NCBI GenBank assembly: GCA_016025055.1
Contig: CP065590.1
Span: forward strand, 4,856,727 to 4,920,726
DNA length: 64,000 nucleotides
Direction of reading: 5' to 3'
From: Chryseobacterium indologenes
Lineage (GTDB): Bacteria > Bacteroidota > Bacteroidia > Flavobacteriales > Weeksellaceae
How positions within the stretch are numbered: the first letter of the stretch is position 1; every line of letters starts with the position of its first letter. Shown here piece by piece: positions 54,991 through 62,821 of this stretch. Below the pieces are notes generated by a model, which was not told the origin of the DNA, searched no databases, and was given only the letters and a program-made list of their open reading frames with translations. The translations under genes were made by a program, and so were the position numbers.

Positions 54991-55296
54991 TTAAAGGAAG
55001 AATGAACGCAGGATAGTAGCGGCAACAATCAGGAAGATACACGCACCGAACCACGAAGCTGCGGTCTTACTCGTGTCGGGGTCGCCGGAACTGAATTTGT
55101 TGTACACCTTAACGCCCCCGATTAACCCGACGACTGCACCGATGGCGTAGATTAACTGCGTTGCGGGGTCGAAATAACTTGTTACCATTTGGGTAGCCTC
55201 GTTGATACCTGCCGAGCCGTTTCCCTGTGCGAACGCACCAATTCCTGACAGCATTGCCACGGCTGCCAGTAAAACTTTTTTTCTCTGTTTTTCCAT
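54991..55296 (-). CDS. traE: conjugative transposon protein TraE (DUF4134)
   Basis: The 101-residue protein has an N-terminal signal/helix (VLLAAVAMLSGIGAFAQ) and a second and third helix (LIYAIGAVVGLIGGVKVY; WFGACIFLIVAATILRSFFL), the DUF4134 layout of a VirB2-like pilin. It is the first gene downstream of the defence block, on the opposite strand to the block, and starts the traE-traQ operon. A second frame over it is a shadow. Confidence 0.85.
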   Translation of the reverse strand: MEKQRKKVLLAAVAMLSGIGAFAQGNGSAGINEATQMVTSYFDPATQLIYAIGAVVGLIGGVKVYNKFSSGDPDTSKTAASWFGACIFLIVAATILRSFFL

Positions 55297-55442
55297 AATT
55301 GAAACACATTAATTTGTTACTGTTTATCCCGCACCTTGCGAGCTTTCGGGACAAATGTCTTGTGGAAAAAGAGGCGTTATGAGAAAGTGGCAGTCAAAGG
55401 AAGTGTTTGGCTGTGAGTGGCTTTGCAACAAGCATTTGAGCA

Positions 55443-55472
55443 TAAAAAAAAGCCAAACTTTTTACGGTTTGA
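55443..55472 (-). terminator. possible minus-strand terminator upstream of traE
   Basis: On the minus strand CAAAC / GTTTG pair around GTAAAAA-type loop sequence, followed by a run of T. The stem is short. If it works, it would stop readthrough from traD into traE. Confidence 0.4.
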
Positions 55473-55577
55473 GGTTACGTTTCAATAATAACTATTATGG
55501 ATTTTGCACTTTTATTCTATAGAAGCGGTTATCTGTCACTCAAAACGAGCCAAAATCCAAAGTTTATAGCTGAAAGC

Positions 55578-55608
55578 TTTCGCAAACGAAACCAAATTAG
55601 TAGATTTG
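55578..55608 (+). promoter_or_regulatory. promoter and operator of the controller gene
   Basis: TAGATTTG (55601-55608) is a TAnnTTTG -7 box 31 bp before the ATG at 55640. A -33-like TTTC lies 19 bp before it inside the palindrome TTTCG-CAAA-CGAAA (55578-55591), a likely operator for the XRE protein. Confidence 0.55.
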
Positions 55609-55639
55609 CCAAAAGTGTCAAGAAATAAATTTCAAGATT

Positions 55640-55966
55640 ATGAAAGAAACATTTGGCGAATATATTCACAAGCTAAGATTAGATAATGGTTTAACATTAA
55701 CTAAACTTGCGGCTGCATTAGACATAGACCAATCTACCTTATCAAAAATTGAAAACGGTAAAAGAAATGTACCTGCTGAAATAATACCGAAACTTTCAGC
55801 ATTTTTCAGTCTTGACTTAAAAAAATTAGAACACGAGTATCTAAGCGAAAGAATTGCAGAATTAATTTATCCGGAGGAGGAAACTCAAAAGCTATTTTTA
55901 GCTGCTGAGGAGAAAGCAAAATATATGAGAATTAAAAACCAACATCAAAGTACACTCAAGTTTTAA
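55640..55966 (+). CDS. controller-type XRE regulator of the RM block
   Basis: The 108-residue protein has a full HTH (LRLDNGLTLTKLAAALDIDQSTLSKIENGKRNVPAEIIPKLSAFF). It precedes the C5 methyltransferase by 2 bp. Small XRE (C) proteins often set timing in restriction-modification systems by binding their own promoter; a palindrome overlaps this one. It heads the six-gene block. Confidence 0.8.
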   Translation: MKETFGEYIHKLRLDNGLTLTKLAAALDIDQSTLSKIENGKRNVPAEIIPKLSAFFSLDLKKLEHEYLSERIAELIYPEEETQKLFLAAEEKAKYMRIKNQHQSTLKF

Positions 55967-55968
55967 TT

Positions 55969-57024
55969 ATGGTAGGAGCATCATTATTTTCAAGTGCAGG
56001 CATAGCAGAAACTTACTTTGAAGAAGTAGGAATTAATATTATCGCTGCTAACGAATTGGTTCAGGAAAGAGCTGACCTATATCAGGCATTGTATCCAAAT
56101 TCTAAAATGATTGCAGGTAGCATTTTAGACGATAAGATTTTTAAAACACTCGTAGAAAGTACCCCTGAAAAATTAGACTTTCTAATTGCTTCACCACCTT
56201 GTCAAGGAATGAGTGTTGCAGGAAAAAATCGGAATATTGAGCAAATGCTTAAAGATGAAAGGAATTATCTTGTTTTTAAAATAATTGATTTCATTAAATT
56301 AAAATCTCCCGATTTTGTACTGATAGAAAATGTACCAACATTTTTTAAGATGGTTTTGCCATACCAAAATCAACATTTAAAAGTAATAGAGATTTTAAAT
56401 CTATTATTCGGCAAAGAATACAAAATTGAAGCTAATGTGTATGATGCTTCTGAATATGGTGTTGCTCAAAGACGGACAAGAGCAATCATAAAATTGTACC
56501 GAAAAGACAAAAAATGGGGACAACCTATAAAGTCTGAAAAGCAAATAACAGTCGAAGAAAAGATTGGTTTTTTACCAAGTATTGAGGCAGGAGAACAGTC
56601 AAAAATAAAATGGCATTTTGCCCGAAAACATTCGGATAATCACGTACTGTGGATGAAGCATACCCCAACAGGAAAAACCGCTTTTGAAAATGAAGAATAC
56701 TTTCCTATAAAATCTAATGGAGAAAAAATAAAAAGTTACAATACCACATACCGACGAATTAAATGGGATGAACCCGCTCCCACCATTACAATGCGAAATG
56801 ATGCAATCAGTTCACAATTGAATGTGCATCCAGGAAGAAAATTAAAAAACGGAACTTATTCTGATGCAAGAGTTTTAACACCTTTGGAGTTAATGTTGTT
56901 GTCCTCTCTTCCACAAAATTGGAATATCCCGGATAATACACCTGAATTACTTATTAGAAAATGTATTGGAGAATGTATTCCGCCTTTGTTAATTAAAAAT
57001 ATTGTTGCTCAAATAAATCAATAA
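55969..57024 (+). CDS. DNA cytosine-5 methyltransferase
   Basis: The 351-residue enzyme has motif I SLFSSAGIAETYFEEVG, motif IV SPPCQGMSVAGK (catalytic Cys), motif VI LIENVPTF, motif VIII QRRTRAI, motif IX APTITMRND and motif X ECIPPLLIKN. It would place 5-methylcytosine on one strand of the recognition sequence, protecting it against the adjacent endonuclease. It is transcribed with the controller and the endonuclease. Confidence 0.92.
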   Translation: MVGASLFSSAGIAETYFEEVGINIIAANELVQERADLYQALYPNSKMIAGSILDDKIFKTLVESTPEKLDFLIASPPCQGMSVAGKNRNIEQMLKDERNYLVFKIIDFIKLKSPDFVLIENVPTFFKMVLPYQNQHLKVIEILNLLFGKEYKIEANVYDASEYGVAQRRTRAIIKLYRKDKKWGQPIKSEKQITVEEKIGFLPSIEAGEQSKIKWHFARKHSDNHVLWMKHTPTGKTAFENEEYFPIKSNGEKIKSYNTTYRRIKWDEPAPTITMRNDAISSQLNVHPGRKLKNGTYSDARVLTPLELMLLSSLPQNWNIPDNTPELLIRKCIGECIPPLLIKNIVAQINQ

Positions 57025-57025
57025 T

Positions 57026-58473
57026 ATGACTTTACGAATTGATAGTAAGAAATGGATTTTATACAGACATACAAGAGATTTTGAAAAACTTTGTGTTGTT
57101 GCTGAATTTTTGAAGTCATACACCAAGACAGGAATTTCAAAAGATGAGAAAGCGCAATTAAATTCAAAGTTACGTGAGTTAGGTTTGTATAGCGAAAGAA
57201 ATCCTGAATTACCGCTTGATGCGATAAACCATAAAATCAATCAGCTTTCATATTATATGTTTGGCTACCAAGCCAAGGTTGATGGGCAAGACCGTTTTTT
57301 ATTTAGTCCGCTTGGAAACTTATTTTTGAAAAACGTTGGGGATAAAGAGAAAATAGCCAAAATATTTCTTACAATGCTTTGGGCTGTACAATATCCCCAT
57401 CCACATAGCGGAACGGATAGCGAATTTCAGCTTTATCCATTTCGTTTGATTTATAAATTGCTTTCAGAACCAAAACTATCTAACAAACTTTATGCTTTTG
57501 AGGTTGCGTACGTTGTTGTGTTTCTCAAAGAAGCTACTCAAAAAACATATGATGTCTTAATAAATGAATTATTAGCATTAAGAAAGTTTTCAGATGAAGA
57601 AATTGCTCAAAAATTTCAAGAAGACAGACACGCTTATGTGAACTCTGCTTATGAATGGGATTATTACGTTTCAAGTCTGTTTGAAAGTGCAGGTGTATTG
57701 AACAAACGAGAGGGAATTGTTATAACCAAACTACAACACGGAACAACCAATACTTTTAGGAAAATAACAAGAAACGAGGTTGCAATTCCTGAAAATTTAA
57801 AACAGTTAGTTCAGCAATTAGAAAATGAATATTCTTTTTTAGCAAAGCCTCTGTTGCTTAACGACCCTGAACGTTTGAAAATTGATGTTATTAAGGAAAT
57901 TTACAGTTTTTACCCTAAGACACTTTTAGTTGAAATTGGCGAAGTAGCTGATGATATAAAATTTGAATTGCTTAATCTTCCGAAAATTATAGAACAATAC
58001 GCAAACAATAACGAAGGAGCGGAAGCATATCTTTTGAAGATGCTTTGACAGATGGTTTCAATATGTTCTACAATATAGAAGCCGAAAAAGTAGGCGGAGC
58101 AGGAAACACTGATTTGGAATGCCTGTATATTCCTAAAAAGAAAAAATTCGCCGTTGATGCCAAGTCGACCAAAAACAAACTTTCGGGTGTAAATGCTGGA
58201 AGATTAGAAGGGCACCGAGAAAAAATTGGGGGAGCTTACACAATTGTAGTTACGCCAAGATATGTTCCAGCGGTACTTCAAGATATTCGCACAAGTCCGA
58301 TTGTAATTATTCGGGCAAACACTTTTTCGGAATATTTATACAACTGTATTGATAATGACGTGAGAGAAATTGACTACGAAGATTTTGATAATATCATCGT
58401 CAATAATCTTGGAAAAGACATCAGTAAAAACATTTCGGACCTGACTATTTCAAGGTTTGCAGCAAAAAATTAA
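57026..58473 (+). CDS. type II restriction endonuclease, AlwI-like (frame broken by a 1-nt indel)
   Basis: The 3' part, in a second frame, reads DALTDGFNMFYNIEAEKVGGAGNTDLECLYIPKKKKFAVDAKST, a PD-(D/E)xK-type site (D...DAK). The two frames are joined by one more T in the TTTT run 58032-58035, giving 483 codons and reading AYLFEDALTDGF. The N-terminal half is a helical specificity-like domain. It resembles AlwI-family enzymes by eye. Two neighbouring methyltransferases support an asymmetric recognition site. The family call is tentative. Confidence 0.7.
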
Positions 58474-58481
58474 AACTTACG

Positions 58482-59243
58482 ATGATTACAATTACGAGAG
58501 AAAATAATATGGAATTAATGGCAAGATATCCAGACAACTATTTTGACCTTGCCATAGTCGACCCACCTTATGGGATTTTAAACAAAACAAAAAGAGGTGG
58601 CGACTACAAATTTAATATGGATGAGTACAGTCAATGGGATGTAAAACCCAATGATGATTACTTTAATGAGTTACTTCGGGTTTCAAAAAATCAGATTATT
58701 TGGGGAGGAAACTATTTCGGACAACTTTGGCTAAAAAGCGAATACAACAAAGGGTTTATTATTTGGGATAAAAACCAACCCGAAACATTGAATAATTTTT
58801 CAATGGCAGAAATGGCTTGGTCATCATTAGACAAGCCTTCAAAAATTTTCAGATTTAGTGTAAGAAAAAATAGAAATAAAATCCACCCAACACAAAAACC
58901 AGTAGAGCTTTACGAATGGCTTTTGAAAATGTATGCTAATCAAGGAGATAAAATCTTAGATACTCATTTGGGAAGTGGAACAATTGCAATTGCGTGTTAT
59001 AATGCAGGATTGAGTTTGACAGCTTGCGAAATTAGCGAAACCTACTATTTAAAAGCATTAGATAAGATAAAGGAAGTCATTCCCGAAAGTGCAATCCATA
59101 CGAATGATTTAGATGCTTTTTCTTTGACATTTCCTGAGCAAACTAAATCTAAAAACGGATTATATAAACAATATCAAGAACAGGTAGAACAATTGAGATT
59201 ATTTAAAGAAGAACGAGCAAAGTACTATGCAGGTGTGAGATAG
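58482..59243 (+). CDS. DNA adenine-type (N6/N4) methyltransferase, beta class
   Basis: The 253-residue enzyme has DPPYG near residue 30 and an FxGxG-like THLGSGT near residue 165, with KNRNKIHPTQKPVELYEWLLKMY in between. DPPY before FxGxG places it in the beta class; DPPY favours adenine N6. It would modify the other strand of the RM system's site. It starts 8 bp after the endonuclease stop and precedes kwaA by 30 bp. Confidence 0.88.
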   Translation: MITITRENNMELMARYPDNYFDLAIVDPPYGILNKTKRGGDYKFNMDEYSQWDVKPNDDYFNELLRVSKNQIIWGGNYFGQLWLKSEYNKGFIIWDKNQPETLNNFSMAEMAWSSLDKPSKIFRFSVRKNRNKIHPTQKPVELYEWLLKMYANQGDKILDTHLGSGTIAIACYNAGLSLTACEISETYYLKALDKIKEVIPESAIHTNDLDAFSLTFPEQTKSKNGLYKQYQEQVEQLRLFKEERAKYYAGVR

Positions 59244-59273
59244 TTCCCATATAGGCATCTCCAAAATAATGTA

Positions 59274-59863
59274 ATGAAAAAGTAAAACTAAATAATATCG
59301 CAATTTTTGTGTTGTTCATTACATCATATATTCCGTTGTTTGGATTATTGATTTTGCGACAAGTCAAGCAAAATATTGATTATTTGAATTTTGGAGGTTT
59401 TAGTCAAGAAAGTGTATTTCTGGCTTTAGCAAAATTTGGGTTAAGCGTTTTTCTTTTTCTTACTGCAATATTCGGTTATATAGGGCTGAAATTTTTATTG
59501 ATAAATTTAGATATAAAAAAATCAAATGGAGAGCTTGTAAAAGTCGTTGAAGTAGAAAACAAGAATAGTGAAAGCATCAGTTACATCTCAACTTACATTG
59601 TTCCCTTCATCTTCCAAGACACAAATAACTTATTTGACATTACGTCGATTTTCATTGTCTTGATAATCATATTTTTCATTTATACAAAATCAAATATGAT
59701 TGTAATAAATCCAATATTGAGTATTACTCATACCCTTTACCAAATTGATTACAACAAGAAGAGCCAAACAAAAAAAGCTCTTTTGATAACAAAAGATGAA
59801 GATTTGGAAAGCGGGCAAGAAATAAAAATAAACTTAATTACGAAAAATATTTATTATGGATAA
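59274..59863 (+). CDS. kwaA: Kiwa anti-phage protein KwaA (frame broken by a 1-nt indel)
   Basis: Extending the frame upstream through a five-A run (59277-59281) with one additional A gives MKKVKLNNIAIFVLFITSYIPLFGLLIL and 197 codons. The protein has four hydrophobic helices, including YISTYIVPFIFQ and ITSIFIVLIIIFFIY, with a basic cytosolic C-terminal tail. This matches the KwaA membrane component, thought to sense phage at the membrane and work with KwaB. It overlaps kwaB by 8 bp. The assignment rests on topology plus the partner gene. Confidence 0.75.
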
Positions 59864-60875
59864 ATCCATTTTGGTCGATATAATTGGTCAGGCAAGTGCG
59901 GAAAACTTAAAGATGTATTTTGTCACTCGTATTCTCAAAGAAGGAATGAAAGCTAACGCACGTGTTTTGGAAAAGTTTGACTTTAAAGTTTATCAGATAG
60001 AGATTACGGATGAAGTAAGAAACTATCTTTATGAACTTTCATTGAAACAGTTCAAAAAAATTCAGGATAATGAAGATTTAAACTTTTTCGATTATGATGT
60101 CATAGCTGACGAAACAGAACATCTGTTTACTTATCAAATGCAGAATAAAGTTGGCTCTTTTTCAGACGTTGTTTATAACCAATTAAACCAAAGCCCACCG
60201 AAAATCACAGATTTAAACGATATACTCCAAGATGAAACTCTTTGGGCATATTGTGTCGAGTTTGAAATTGACAGTAATAAATCTTTTTATACATTTAGAA
60301 AAATATCCCCCGGAAAAGTAGGAGTGGAAAAGGAAAAAGACGGAGAAAAGAAAAGCTTAGGCAGTCAGATAAGGACTTTTTTTGACACCAATACCAATAC
60401 ACTTTCATTGCTAAAAAGCGATACTGTTTATTTAGACAAACAAATAGATTGTATCTTTTATGAAGAAACTTTTTACGTATTGAAGAAATTTTACTTTGAG
60501 CAACTTGTCGGATTACAAGAAGAATATAAGAAGAGAGCGGAAGACGTAGCAACATCAATATCTAAACATCAGTGTTTTGGAGATATTAAGCTTCTAACTG
60601 ATAAAATAGAAACAAAAGCTTCTATTCATAAAAAGTTGATGAAGTTGGAAAAATTAGGAAATCTAAATTCTTTAACTTCTAAAAACATAAAAAAGTTGGA
60701 AACATTGGGTAAAAAGAAAAAAGCACCGATAAACTTAAAAGATGGTAAAATCCAATTTGAAACGGAAGAAGATATAGATAATGTGGTCAAACTATTATGT
60801 GACTATTTCAAAACTGGAGATTATTCAGGTAAGCCCTACGGAACATACGCAGGTAAGTTACAAGTGACGGAATAA
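59856..60875 (+). CDS. kwaB: Kiwa anti-phage protein KwaB (DUF4868)
   Basis: The 339-residue protein contains AYCVEFEIDSNKSFYTFRKISPGK, FDTNTNTLSLLKSDTVYLDKQIDCIFYEETFYVLKKFYFEQLVGLQEEY, a good match to the DUF4868 domain of KwaB. It is soluble. In the known system KwaB binds DNA and acts with the membrane protein KwaA to block phage late transcription and replication. It is the last gene of the block and ends 78 bp from traD, which lies on the other strand. Confidence 0.82.
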   Translation: MDKSILVDIIGQASAENLKMYFVTRILKEGMKANARVLEKFDFKVYQIEITDEVRNYLYELSLKQFKKIQDNEDLNFFDYDVIADETEHLFTYQMQNKVGSFSDVVYNQLNQSPPKITDLNDILQDETLWAYCVEFEIDSNKSFYTFRKISPGKVGVEKEKDGEKKSLGSQIRTFFDTNTNTLSLLKSDTVYLDKQIDCIFYEETFYVLKKFYFEQLVGLQEEYKKRAEDVATSISKHQCFGDIKLLTDKIETKASIHKKLMKLEKLGNLNSLTSKNIKKLETLGKKKKAPINLKDGKIQFETEEDIDNVVKLLCDYFKTGDYSGKPYGTYAGKLQVTE

Positions 60876-60952
60876 TGTTGTCATTTCTCACAAGAGGCAT
60901 AATAAGATAATGTCACACTAATACGCAGTTATACTCCTAAAAAAAGGGAATT

Positions 60953-61588
60953 CTATACAAACTCCCCAATGTCAAAATCACCCAAATCACTTTTCCGCAA
61001 GGTGGAAGAACCGTCGTCGCTTTCAGATGAAAGTGTGCTATCCAAAAGCTCGGCAATTTTTCGGGAAGCACCCTCAATGGAATTTTCCAGTAAGCTGAAT
61101 AATTCGGTTCCCTGTAATTTCTGAACTATGGCTACCGCTGTTTCCTTTTGAGCCTGTTCCAAATTCTCTTTTTGGAGCAATGCCCCTACGGAGCTTAGTT
61201 CGTCGTAGGTAACCCCTTGGGCAAAACCGTTATCGCCACCGGATATTCCGTACCTGTTCCATTCTTCTTCCTCTTCCTCCAAATCAGGCATATTGCTGAA
61301 AACTTCGTCCAGTTCTTCCTGCGGAATTTGAATGCTGACGTTTTCGTTTTCGTCGTATTCAATGTCTAAATTATCAGGGTTTATCTCCTGTTCCGTTATT
61401 TGGCTTTCATTGGCAGTGTTTGGCACTGAAAGGCTTCTTACTGGCTTGGGTTGCCCCATAATATCGGGCAGGTTCGGGTTAACTTTTTCCTGTTTGGACT
61501 TTTGCTCCGACCTTTTATGAATGACAATCTTATCCTGCAAAAGCAGGACAATGACTATCAGCAGGCAAATCACAATTACTATTTCCAT
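60953..61588 (-). CDS. traD: conjugative transposon protein TraD
   Basis: The 211-residue protein has one N-terminal helix (VIVICLLIVIVLLL) and a long acidic cytosolic domain with EEEEEEWNRYGISGG and a helical C terminus. It corresponds to TraD of CTnDOT-type elements, in the order traA-traB-traD. In most such elements traE follows; here the RM/Kiwa block intervenes. The gene ends 78 bp from kwaB. Confidence 0.75.
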   Translation of the reverse strand: MEIVIVICLLIVIVLLLQDKIVIHKRSEQKSKQEKVNPNLPDIMGQPKPVRSLSVPNTANESQITEQEINPDNLDIEYDENENVSIQIPQEELDEVFSNMPDLEEEEEEWNRYGISGGDNGFAQGVTYDELSSVGALLQKENLEQAQKETAVAIVQKLQGTELFSLLENSIEGASRKIAELLDSTLSSESDDGSSTLRKSDLGDFDIGEFV

Positions 61589-61599
61589 AATCAGATGCT

Positions 61600-62049
61600 T
61601 TAAAAAATGGGTTTAAACTTTTCGTTGAAATCATCGGTAATGGCTTTTTCAAAAATTTCAAAATGATGTTCCAGTATGTTATCAAGATAGGCATACAGGG
61701 GTATGGCATCTTTACCAATGACCTGTACAATACGGGATAGCCGTTCGTGGTATTCCTGTCGGATGTAAATGCTTTTATCACCCCGCTTCGTCATTGAGTG
61801 GGTTTTCAAAAAATGTTCGCCGTAGCTTCCGTCAAGGCTTTTATTGGTGCGGTTCCTTTCCCGTGGTACTGGTTTGCTTTGTGATAGTTCTTCCTGCTGC
61901 ACCTCGTCTTTTACCGCTTCCTTCACCTGCTCTTCGGCAGGTTCGGACGGTAACTGCAAGCCGTCCTTTTTAACGCCGTCCACCATCAGGTTCATCATCA
62001 TTTCCTCGTTAATGTCCGGCGTGACTTTTCTTTTATTGTCTTTTTCCAT
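61600..62049 (-). CDS. traB: conjugative transposon protein TraB (DUF3408)
   Basis: The 149-residue protein has an acidic first half and a second half SIYIRQEYHERLSRIVQVIGKDAIPLYAYLDNILEHHFE, the DUF3408 ribbon-helix-helix-like domain. It lies 4 bp after the ParA-type TraA gene and is likely to work with it in a partition-like or transfer-regulating role. Another frame over its 3' end is a shadow. Confidence 0.8.
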   Translation of the reverse strand: MEKDNKRKVTPDINEEMMMNLMVDGVKKDGLQLPSEPAEEQVKEAVKDEVQQEELSQSKPVPRERNRTNKSLDGSYGEHFLKTHSMTKRGDKSIYIRQEYHERLSRIVQVIGKDAIPLYAYLDNILEHHFEIFEKAITDDFNEKFKPIF

Positions 62050-62053
62050 AGCA

Positions 62054-62821
62054 CTACAATTGAATGATGTTTAAAAATTCACTGATGAACAGGTCTAACT
62101 GGCAGGCTTTCATCAAACGCTCATCGGGAGGCATTACCGTAGAACGGAAAACCGTTTTGCTGTCCGCTTCGCTTTCCTTGCGAAAACGGGTGCTGTTCTT
62201 GATTTGGCTTTGCATCAGGCTTAACCCTAGTTGCCCGATAAGCTGATTGTACACGTCATATAAGGGTGTGCTTTCCCTGCCGTCCACTTGGTTCCAAAAC
62301 AGGTTAATGCTTTGTATGGAAGTTTCGCCTTTTTTCATAATCACGTCCTGTAAAAGCTGCGTGAAGATGAGCGTACTTTCCATTACCACACGGTCTGCCG
62401 TGATAGGCGTAAAAATGTGGTGCATACCTGCCAACGCTTTCAGGATGCCGGGCGTGTTCACGGTTCCGGGCAGGTCGAAGAACAGCACATCAAGCGGAAC
62501 AGGGGAAGTGTTTACAAATTCGTGCGCCGCATCGAGTACGCTATCCGCTTTGTGCTGCATAATGGGATAGGCTTTTTTATTGATGGTGGTAAACTGCTTA
62601 TATGCCAGTTTTTTCAACGCCTCATTTTCCATTACCATTGCCAAATCACGGGTTTTCATTTTCATCAGGCTGTGCTGCGGAAAATCCGCATCAAAAACGG
62701 CTACGTTGTAGCCCAACCGATAGTGCATCGTACTGGCGACAAGCGTGGTAAATGTGCTTTTGCCAACACCGCCTTTTTGAGAAGAAAAAGCGACAAACAG
62801 AGGTTTCTTTCTTGTGTCCAT
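62054..62821 (-). CDS. traA: TraA, ParA-family ATPase
   Basis: The 255-residue protein has AFSSQKGGVGKSTFTTLVAS, the deviant Walker A of ParA/MinD ATPases, with FDADFPQHS and FFDLPGTVNTPGIL as the other nucleotide-site motifs. It is the first gene of the tra operon. It probably assists DNA positioning or transfer. It starts 760 bp from mobA, divergently, across the oriT-like region. Confidence 0.88.
   Translation of the reverse strand: MDTRKKPLFVAFSSQKGGVGKSTFTTLVASTMHYRLGYNVAVFDADFPQHSLMKMKTRDLAMVMENEALKKLAYKQFTTINKKAYPIMQHKADSVLDAAHEFVNTSPVPLDVLFFDLPGTVNTPGILKALAGMHHIFTPITADRVVMESTLIFTQLLQDVIMKKGETSIQSINLFWNQVDGRESTPLYDVYNQLIGQLGLSLMQSQIKNSTRFRKESEADSKTVFRSTVMPPDERLMKACQLDLFISEFLNIIQL

Follow-up and report, generated by a model that had tools for sequence, protein, structure and literature searches.

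How a block of anti-phage genes comes to lie inside a conjugative transfer region, reading against the transfer genes, is the question raised by one locus of Chryseobacterium indologenes. The stretch analysed, here called the window, comprises 64,000 nucleotides (assembly GCA_016025055.1, contig CP065590.1, positions 4,856,727 to 4,920,726); it is the final 64 kb of a single contig of 4.92 Mb, and the window end is the contig end. It holds the minus-strand tra genes of an integrative and conjugative element (ICE), and between traD (60953-61588) and traE (54991-55296) sits a plus-strand block (55640-60875) of restriction-modification (R-M) and Kiwa genes. The name traD follows gene order and the label given in a preliminary description of the window, which read the block as a single late insertion that splits a continuous operon. 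Our comparisons favour another answer, to which we give a probability of roughly 85%: the block would be the present occupant of a conserved, exchangeable cargo slot that a family of ICEs in the Bacteroidota has in common.

Related loci were collected with a TraG query. The best 80 of 591 confirmed named loci were fetched, among them loci of Chryseobacterium, Flavobacterium, Sphingobacterium, Pedobacter and Chitinophagaceae; TraG places were also listed across 320 genomes of the family, and 40 of these, mostly the closest ones outside the named set, were added. The resulting 120 loci (labelled L; genomes are labelled G) contained traE in 119 cases and both traD and traE in 103, which together with the window gave 104 intervals. 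Near-identical copies occur among these; judged by the 330 bp before traE, 91 sequences are unique (L139 left out). The content of an interval was defined by its groups of open reading frames (ORFs) of at least 150 amino acids (aa), which fell into 144 clusters.

The traD-traE gap ranged from 189 to 9631 bp across the 104 intervals and held 48 different contents, 47 of them non-empty; 98 intervals carried at least one ORF of at least 150 aa. Six intervals had no such ORF, 25 had only members of one family (cluster 0), 54 had a family matching PADLOC models of defence systems and 19 had other cargo. Among the 67 named loci with both genes, the gap had a median of 3453 bp and was longer than 600 bp in 63, whereas the other tra junctions of the named loci (n = 64-79) were near constant and shorter than 600 bp, barring traE-traF (4/79), traG-traI (1/79) and traK-traM, for which the query list omits the genes between. 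Such variability at one junction is what an intergenic cargo hotspot of an ICE would show. The block itself was present in five of the 104 intervals; it is not, as the preliminary description allowed might prove to be the case, carried at this site by most related ICEs, and a single insertion is too narrow a description of a site with 48 contents. Two further traG copies in the same genome (three of ten candidates were scored) have slots with different contents: L112 (3617186-3630000) holds ORFs of clusters 6 and 7, of mercury type judging by their scanned members, and a cluster-0 gene, and L113 holds one 512-aa cluster-0 gene. As to the proposed check for an empty site and a target duplication, near-empty copies exist (L066, 189 bp; L139, 207 bp; L040, 209 bp; L070, 236 bp), and one exact-match test gave no target duplication. 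As a separate observation, the traE-traF gap in L048, L057, L072 and L073 (764-801 bp) has room for one extra gene and is a rarer variable junction, and the long traG-traI gap, in L041, is 2513 bp.

Outside the family, a class-wide draw of 395 genomes gave a TraG match at 1e-150 in 20, and the 20 loci retrieved included seven with a detectable traD. Four of these seven (L159-L162) have traD-traE gaps of 155-222 bp, with traG 70-73% and traD only 25-36% identical to the window, and we infer that they are CTnDOT-like Bacteroidales elements. The gap was 279 bp in L153, 3.6 kb in L152 and 4.5 kb in L154. The assertion of a CTnDOT-like order of the tra genes was supported.

The nature of the cargo was analysed by scanning 60 ORFs from other intervals with PADLOC at a threshold of 1e-10. 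These were chosen by hand, not at random (the first 50 large or representative, the last 10 from contents still unmatched; one, in L029, from an interval without detected traD), and 38 of the 60 matched (7, 8, 5, 9, 6 and 3 per batch of 10). When the matches were extended through ORF clusters and the window block was included, 34 of the 48 contents, the 54 intervals given above, contained a matching family. The matches, with PADLOC gene codes given as system names, comprised Gabija in L017, L032 and L059 (via different best models), Avs3 in L005 and Avs2 in L061, pAgo with a partner in L014, SIR2-pAgo in L023, Hachiman in L019, SIR2-HerA in L004, IetAS and PDC-S51 in L003, type I R-M parts with a PtuA-like ATPase in L011, OloAB in L035, an MkoC-like protein in L039, Shedu in L059, PDC-S02 in L053, PDC-M62 in L033, PDC-M68B in L006, a TmtA-like protein in L051 and type IIG R-M in L017; L041, L031, L122 and L149 gave weaker or partial matches. 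Non-defence cargo included mercury-type genes, a cation-efflux/TonB-receptor pair, an RND pump with a P-type ATPase, and a sensor kinase. The scanned occupants of L042 (an NA37-type protein and two unknowns), L049, L054, L064, L134 and L151 had no PADLOC match and are candidates for undescribed systems or for metal or stress cargo. Cluster 0 (e.g. L004:4918-5718) is a small tra-strand family and the sole large occupant in its 25 intervals; the one member scanned had no Pfam match, and the family may supply the gene with which the traA-D unit ends by default.

The features of the slot in the window, from traD to traE, are as follows.

60953..61588, minus strand: traD, the left slot edge (ORF, present in relatives; no Pfam match).
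60946..60967, minus strand: T1, terminator-like, a hairpin that spans the stop codon of traD with a run of T after it.
59856..60875, plus strand: kwaB (Pfam KwaB, 5e-20; PADLOC KwaB, 6.7e-120; under the NCBIfam cut-off).
59309..59863, plus strand: kwaA, 184 aa with hydrophobic segments (PADLOC, 1.7e-60; NCBIfam, 86.7 bits against a cut-off of 100).
58482..59243, plus strand: N6-adenine-type DNA methyltransferase (Pfam N6_N4_Mtase, 1.1e-17), with the DPPY motif that we take to mark this type.
58045..58473, plus strand: 3' part of the restriction endonuclease (PADLOC PDLC03533, positions 342-466 of 473), with a stretch that we read as PD-(D/E)xK-like.
57026..58048, plus strand: 5' part of the restriction endonuclease, frame broken near its end (PADLOC PDLC03533, positions 4-336 of 473).
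55969..57024, plus strand: C5-cytosine DNA methyltransferase (PPCQ and ENV motifs; Pfam PF00145, 6.3e-57).
55640..55966, plus strand: helix-turn-helix (HTH) controller-type regulator (Pfam HTH_3, 4.9e-13; PADLOC HTH_VI, Control_protein).
55438..55471, minus strand: T2 remnant, a weak terminator copy (-3.3 kcal).
55297..55421, minus strand: conserved module upstream of traE, about 125 bp, the right slot edge.
55349..55359, minus strand: promoter-like motif A..TTTG, which resembles the Bacteroidota -7 element.
55328..55343, minus strand: traE leader hairpin (covariation).
54991..55296, minus strand: traE (DUF4134; Pfam, 5.9e-40).
55272..61653, strand not applicable: tract of near identity common to L116, L118 and L119.

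The position, strand and AT-richness claimed for a six-gene block stood (guanine-cytosine fraction 0.324; flanking tra genes, 0.456 and 0.447), and this composition also supports its later acquisition; the ORFs number seven, since the endonuclease reads as two. PADLOC matched all seven, and Pfam matched four (HTH, C5 methyltransferase, N6/N4 methyltransferase and KwaB) but neither endonuclease ORF nor KwaA. Among the block ORFs, the C5 methyltransferase alone reached an NCBIfam cut-off; the equivalog cut-offs were missed by KwaA and by KwaB (43.1 of 200 bits). The two endonuclease ORFs together span PDLC03533 end to end. The gene neighbours are those expected of Kiwa and of type II R-M: a membrane protein gene, kwaA, adjoins kwaB (DUF4868), and a methyltransferase gene adjoins that of the endonuclease, which was seen intact only in relatives. 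No solved relative was found by sequence for KwaB or for the endonuclease, a plasmid collection searched with the block and its flanks gave a single match of 129 bp (70%) to a methyltransferase gene, and the one Rfam match over the slot was below the gathering score. Misassembly was rejected, since four other genomes have the same junctions.

The broken frames raise the possibility that the cassette is decaying, with methylation left and Kiwa possibly impaired. This is compatible with a cargo slot and is the alternative that survives best, although we consider it rather unlikely. In its favour are the divided endonuclease, which is intact with 482 aa in four relatives, and KwaA, which is 12 aa shorter than the 196 aa found in the four. 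However, the endonuclease frame is broken where a short homopolymer run has changed in length by one base. Comparison with L002, from which the diverged traC and a repeat region around 48.4 kb were excluded, revealed one-base differences of the same kind: one in the endonuclease, two in traI, one immediately ahead of the start of KwaA and one between kwaB and traD. The length of the block is 5236 bases here, against 5238 in the four other genomes. A mercuric-reductase-type ORF of 550 aa in L112, from the same assembly, is likewise split, and is whole in L078, L132 and L147; the completeness of the assembly is 97.24%, against 99-100% for most of the listed genomes of the genus. This pattern suits sequencing error, which is probably what split the endonuclease.

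The whole block was found in five of the 320 family genomes (its own, G054, G059, G261 and G292; three genera), always in this slot. The R-M part alone matched in G113 and G003 and the Kiwa part alone in G206 and G160; the two parts meet between the N6 methyltransferase and KwaA. A strongly diverged other half may lie beside these partial matches. Comparison of the window with L116, L118 and L119 revealed 0-2 differences in 636 positions of traD, none in 129 of the leader and an almost identical block, while traE differed at 7-28 of 306, traC at 46-48 of 450 and the start of traG at 36 of 561 or at 40 and 46 of 601. On the right the first differences lie at 55270 or 55271, and on the left they are dense from 61654 onward; few and scattered ones lie within the tract between, and the genes outside it differ by about 2-11%. 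L002 differs from the window mainly in traC (50 in 450), and L124 has an identical traE with different cargo. Because near identity extends from traD to the traE leader while the outer flanks differ, these comparisons are consistent with content being exchanged between elements, pointing to homologous recombination between ICEs across the slot. The left flank at 61600-62821 (traC, traA) is mosaic: traA is between about 50% and 99% identical to its counterparts in relatives, with values as low as 53-55% in L005, L007, L008 and L009, where traG is 97-98% identical.

Direct insertion of cassettes by a site-specific recombinase or transposon that targets the traD-traE gap would also account for the reuse of the same edges, and several short GCCA-type repeats are visible by eye in the traE leader (chance not assessed). 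We regard it as very improbable: no recombinase or transposase family was found among the block ORFs with Pfam, PADLOC or NCBIfam, the longest direct match between the junctions was an 8-nt A-rich run that 56% of shuffles reached, and the near identity with relatives continues through traD.

Both edges of the slot are fixed and leave the core genes uninterrupted, being the traD stop with T1 on the left and a point about 125 bp before traE on the right, and they are less sharp in distant copies. Folding at T1 gave a mean z-score of -3.33 over 91 unique traD ends, with 68% below -2, compared with 0.04 and -0.23 for two control stretches. Single-sequence scores were used here instead of an alignment of 78 unique traD ends, which gave no consensus hairpin and in which the sequences diverge past the stop. 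On the right, the 125 bp or so upstream of traE are common to ICEs with unrelated cargo and to cargo-free ICEs. In copies whose cargo is opposed to the tra genes, mean identity to the cargo-free L139 was 0.63-0.87 per bin up to 130 bp (shuffled, 0.49-0.59). It fell to 0.57 and then 0.52 in the two bins after that, for which shuffles gave 0.61 and 0.54, and was modestly above shuffles farther out. Of 104 unique leaders, 102 have the motif A..TTTG at 45-75 nt before traE, and 79 of the 102 also have a further upstream element by a permissive pattern (chance rates were computed for neither). In the leader hairpin, changes on both sides were found at all five pairs among 73 unique sequences; both-side-changed cells numbered 35 against 9.2 in shuffles, and none of 300 shuffles reached 35. 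Because this leader module is common to cargo-free ICEs and to ICEs with unrelated cargo, traA-D and traE-Q look like separate transcription units already, and the claim that the block forces traE-traQ to have its own promoter was not upheld. Least credible of all is the reading given in the preliminary description, a late insertion into a continuous traA-traQ operon after which traE gained a promoter, since the short gaps of the CTnDOT-like loci and the AT-rich, opposed block speak for it but the motif and hairpin in cargo-free copies and the ORFs in 98 of the 104 intervals (47 non-empty contents) speak against it.

The direction of the cargo was associated with a second terminator. In the cargo-free L139 and L040, a terminator, T2, lies about 153 nt upstream of traE (-11.7 and -13.6 kcal); several ICEs that are cargo-free or have co-directional cargo carry T2 ahead of the traE leader. 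We scored terminators on the tra strand at any site 105-340 nt upstream of traE with a limit of -10 kcal, a widening of an earlier strict test at 140-165 nt. One was found in 28 of the 33 copies in which the nearest cargo reads toward traE and in none of the 65 in which it reads away (strict test, 25/35 vs 1/64); four of the six copies without a large ORF had one, as did none of 104 shuffled segments. With one copy per content and the cluster-0-only copies excluded, the counts were 4 of 7 co-directional and 0 of 40 opposed contents (p = 2e-4). The terminators of L011 and L143, at 133 and 132 nt, are of unrelated sequence.

Several results weigh against a defence slot with sharp, insulated edges. 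Even where the cargo is opposed, similarity at more than 150 bp from traE remains modestly higher than in shuffles, so that the sharpness of the right edge varies between copies. Kinship of the sequences inflates the covariation and association counts, and most co-directional cases belong to one gene family, cluster 0; without the copies that hold it alone, the terminator link comes down to the seven co-directional contents, of which L014, L024 and L151 lack a terminator, as do L066 and L070 among the six copies without a large ORF. A generic terminator scan of 55200-61100 in the window gave two sites, against 3.0 in shuffles, so that the T1 copy of the window taken alone is not beyond chance, and a sigma-70 scan of the region, with 28 against 24.9 in shuffles, was likewise at shuffle level. 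As to cargo, 12 of the 48 contents (the 19 intervals mentioned above) hold other cargo, three of them with only a partial defence match, and PADLOC includes generic models: of 12 chromosomal ORFs picked as a control, 10 were scanned and two matched, one of them a methyltransferase like that of the block, although this control is biased toward matches, its loci having been fetched originally for short matches to the block.

With these points taken into account, the exchangeable cargo slot remains the reading we prefer, and it would work as follows. The slot would lie between two transfer units, traA-traD, closed by T1, and traE-traQ, with its promoter-like leader. Cargo, more often than not anti-phage, would be swapped by homologous recombination between related ICEs, with crossovers in traC/traD on one side and in the 5' end of traE on the other. 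Modules can stack, a type II R-M module being joined to a Kiwa module here, and the terminators would keep cargo transcription from entering traE. The sequences themselves show the slot with its edges and variable content, the tract of near identity and the association of terminators with cargo direction; promoter activity, termination, defence function and recombination as the means of exchange are inferred from them. Whether this arrangement is an evolved socket for immune systems that is insulated in its transcription, with a hairpin where traD ends, a bay of exchangeable content, a terminator that depends on cargo orientation and, for the type IV secretion operon, its own promoter with a conserved 5' stem-loop, is a question on which we find the balance even; if it is, immune genes could be swapped among ICE backbones, and across genera, with regulated transfer undisturbed. 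One conserved gap gives a fixed point from which the mobile immune repertoire can be catalogued across a large group of Bacteroidota, and any traD-traE occupant, including those without a known family, becomes a candidate defence or stress gene. The slot also makes it testable by what means a conjugative element can exchange cargo within its transfer region while transfer stays unharmed, and if the position of the terminator tracks the direction of the cargo.

Among known systems, the CTnDOT/ERL elements share the tra gene order with the window, including TraE with DUF4134 and TraF with DUF4133, which we take to define the CTnDOT-type family; the presence of these two Pfam families goes with our not assigning the window to the SXT/R391 family. 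The likeness extends to the traG of the class-level loci presumed to be CTnDOT-like, but the four with detectable traD carry no cargo between traD and traE. The R-M part resembles type II systems with a controller, having an HTH controller, C5 and N6-type methyltransferases and an endonuclease in one co-directional run, and differs in the endonuclease split in this assembly. The Kiwa part is like Kiwa (mechanism reviewed in PMC12904381) in that kwaA adjoins kwaB and KwaA has hydrophobic segments; it would be a divergent branch, since KwaA and KwaB both fall under the NCBIfam equivalog cut-offs. In ICERanRCAD0133-1 of Riemerella anatipestifer, the tra clusters are listed as traABD and traEFGGIJKMNOQ, which is a split at the same place as in the window, and an N6 methylase is on the ICE; no hotspot or traD-traE content is described in the parts of that report consulted (PMC6491836). 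Nor does a description of a traD-traE slot appear in the consulted parts of PMC6491836, PMC2791158, PMC6915712, PMC8102008, PMC11658703, PMC12904381 and PMC12409358, which does not establish its absence from print. The closest parallel is found in the SXT/R391 ICEs, which, in the passages on hotspots, have five intergenic sites, HS1-HS5, with constant edges, variable content in which R-M and DNA-modification genes are numerous, and homologous recombination between ICEs; inserts in HS2 follow the stop codon of traA and extend to 79 bp before s054 (PMC2791158, PMC12409358). The traD-traE slot resembles these in its place among core genes, its fixed edges, its variable, R-M-rich content and its apparent exchange by homologous recombination. 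It differs in belonging to an unrelated ICE family, in being one dominant site instead of five, and in the link between terminator and cargo orientation, which those passages do not mention. We conclude that the defence slot is real, belongs to a known general kind and has apparently not been described.

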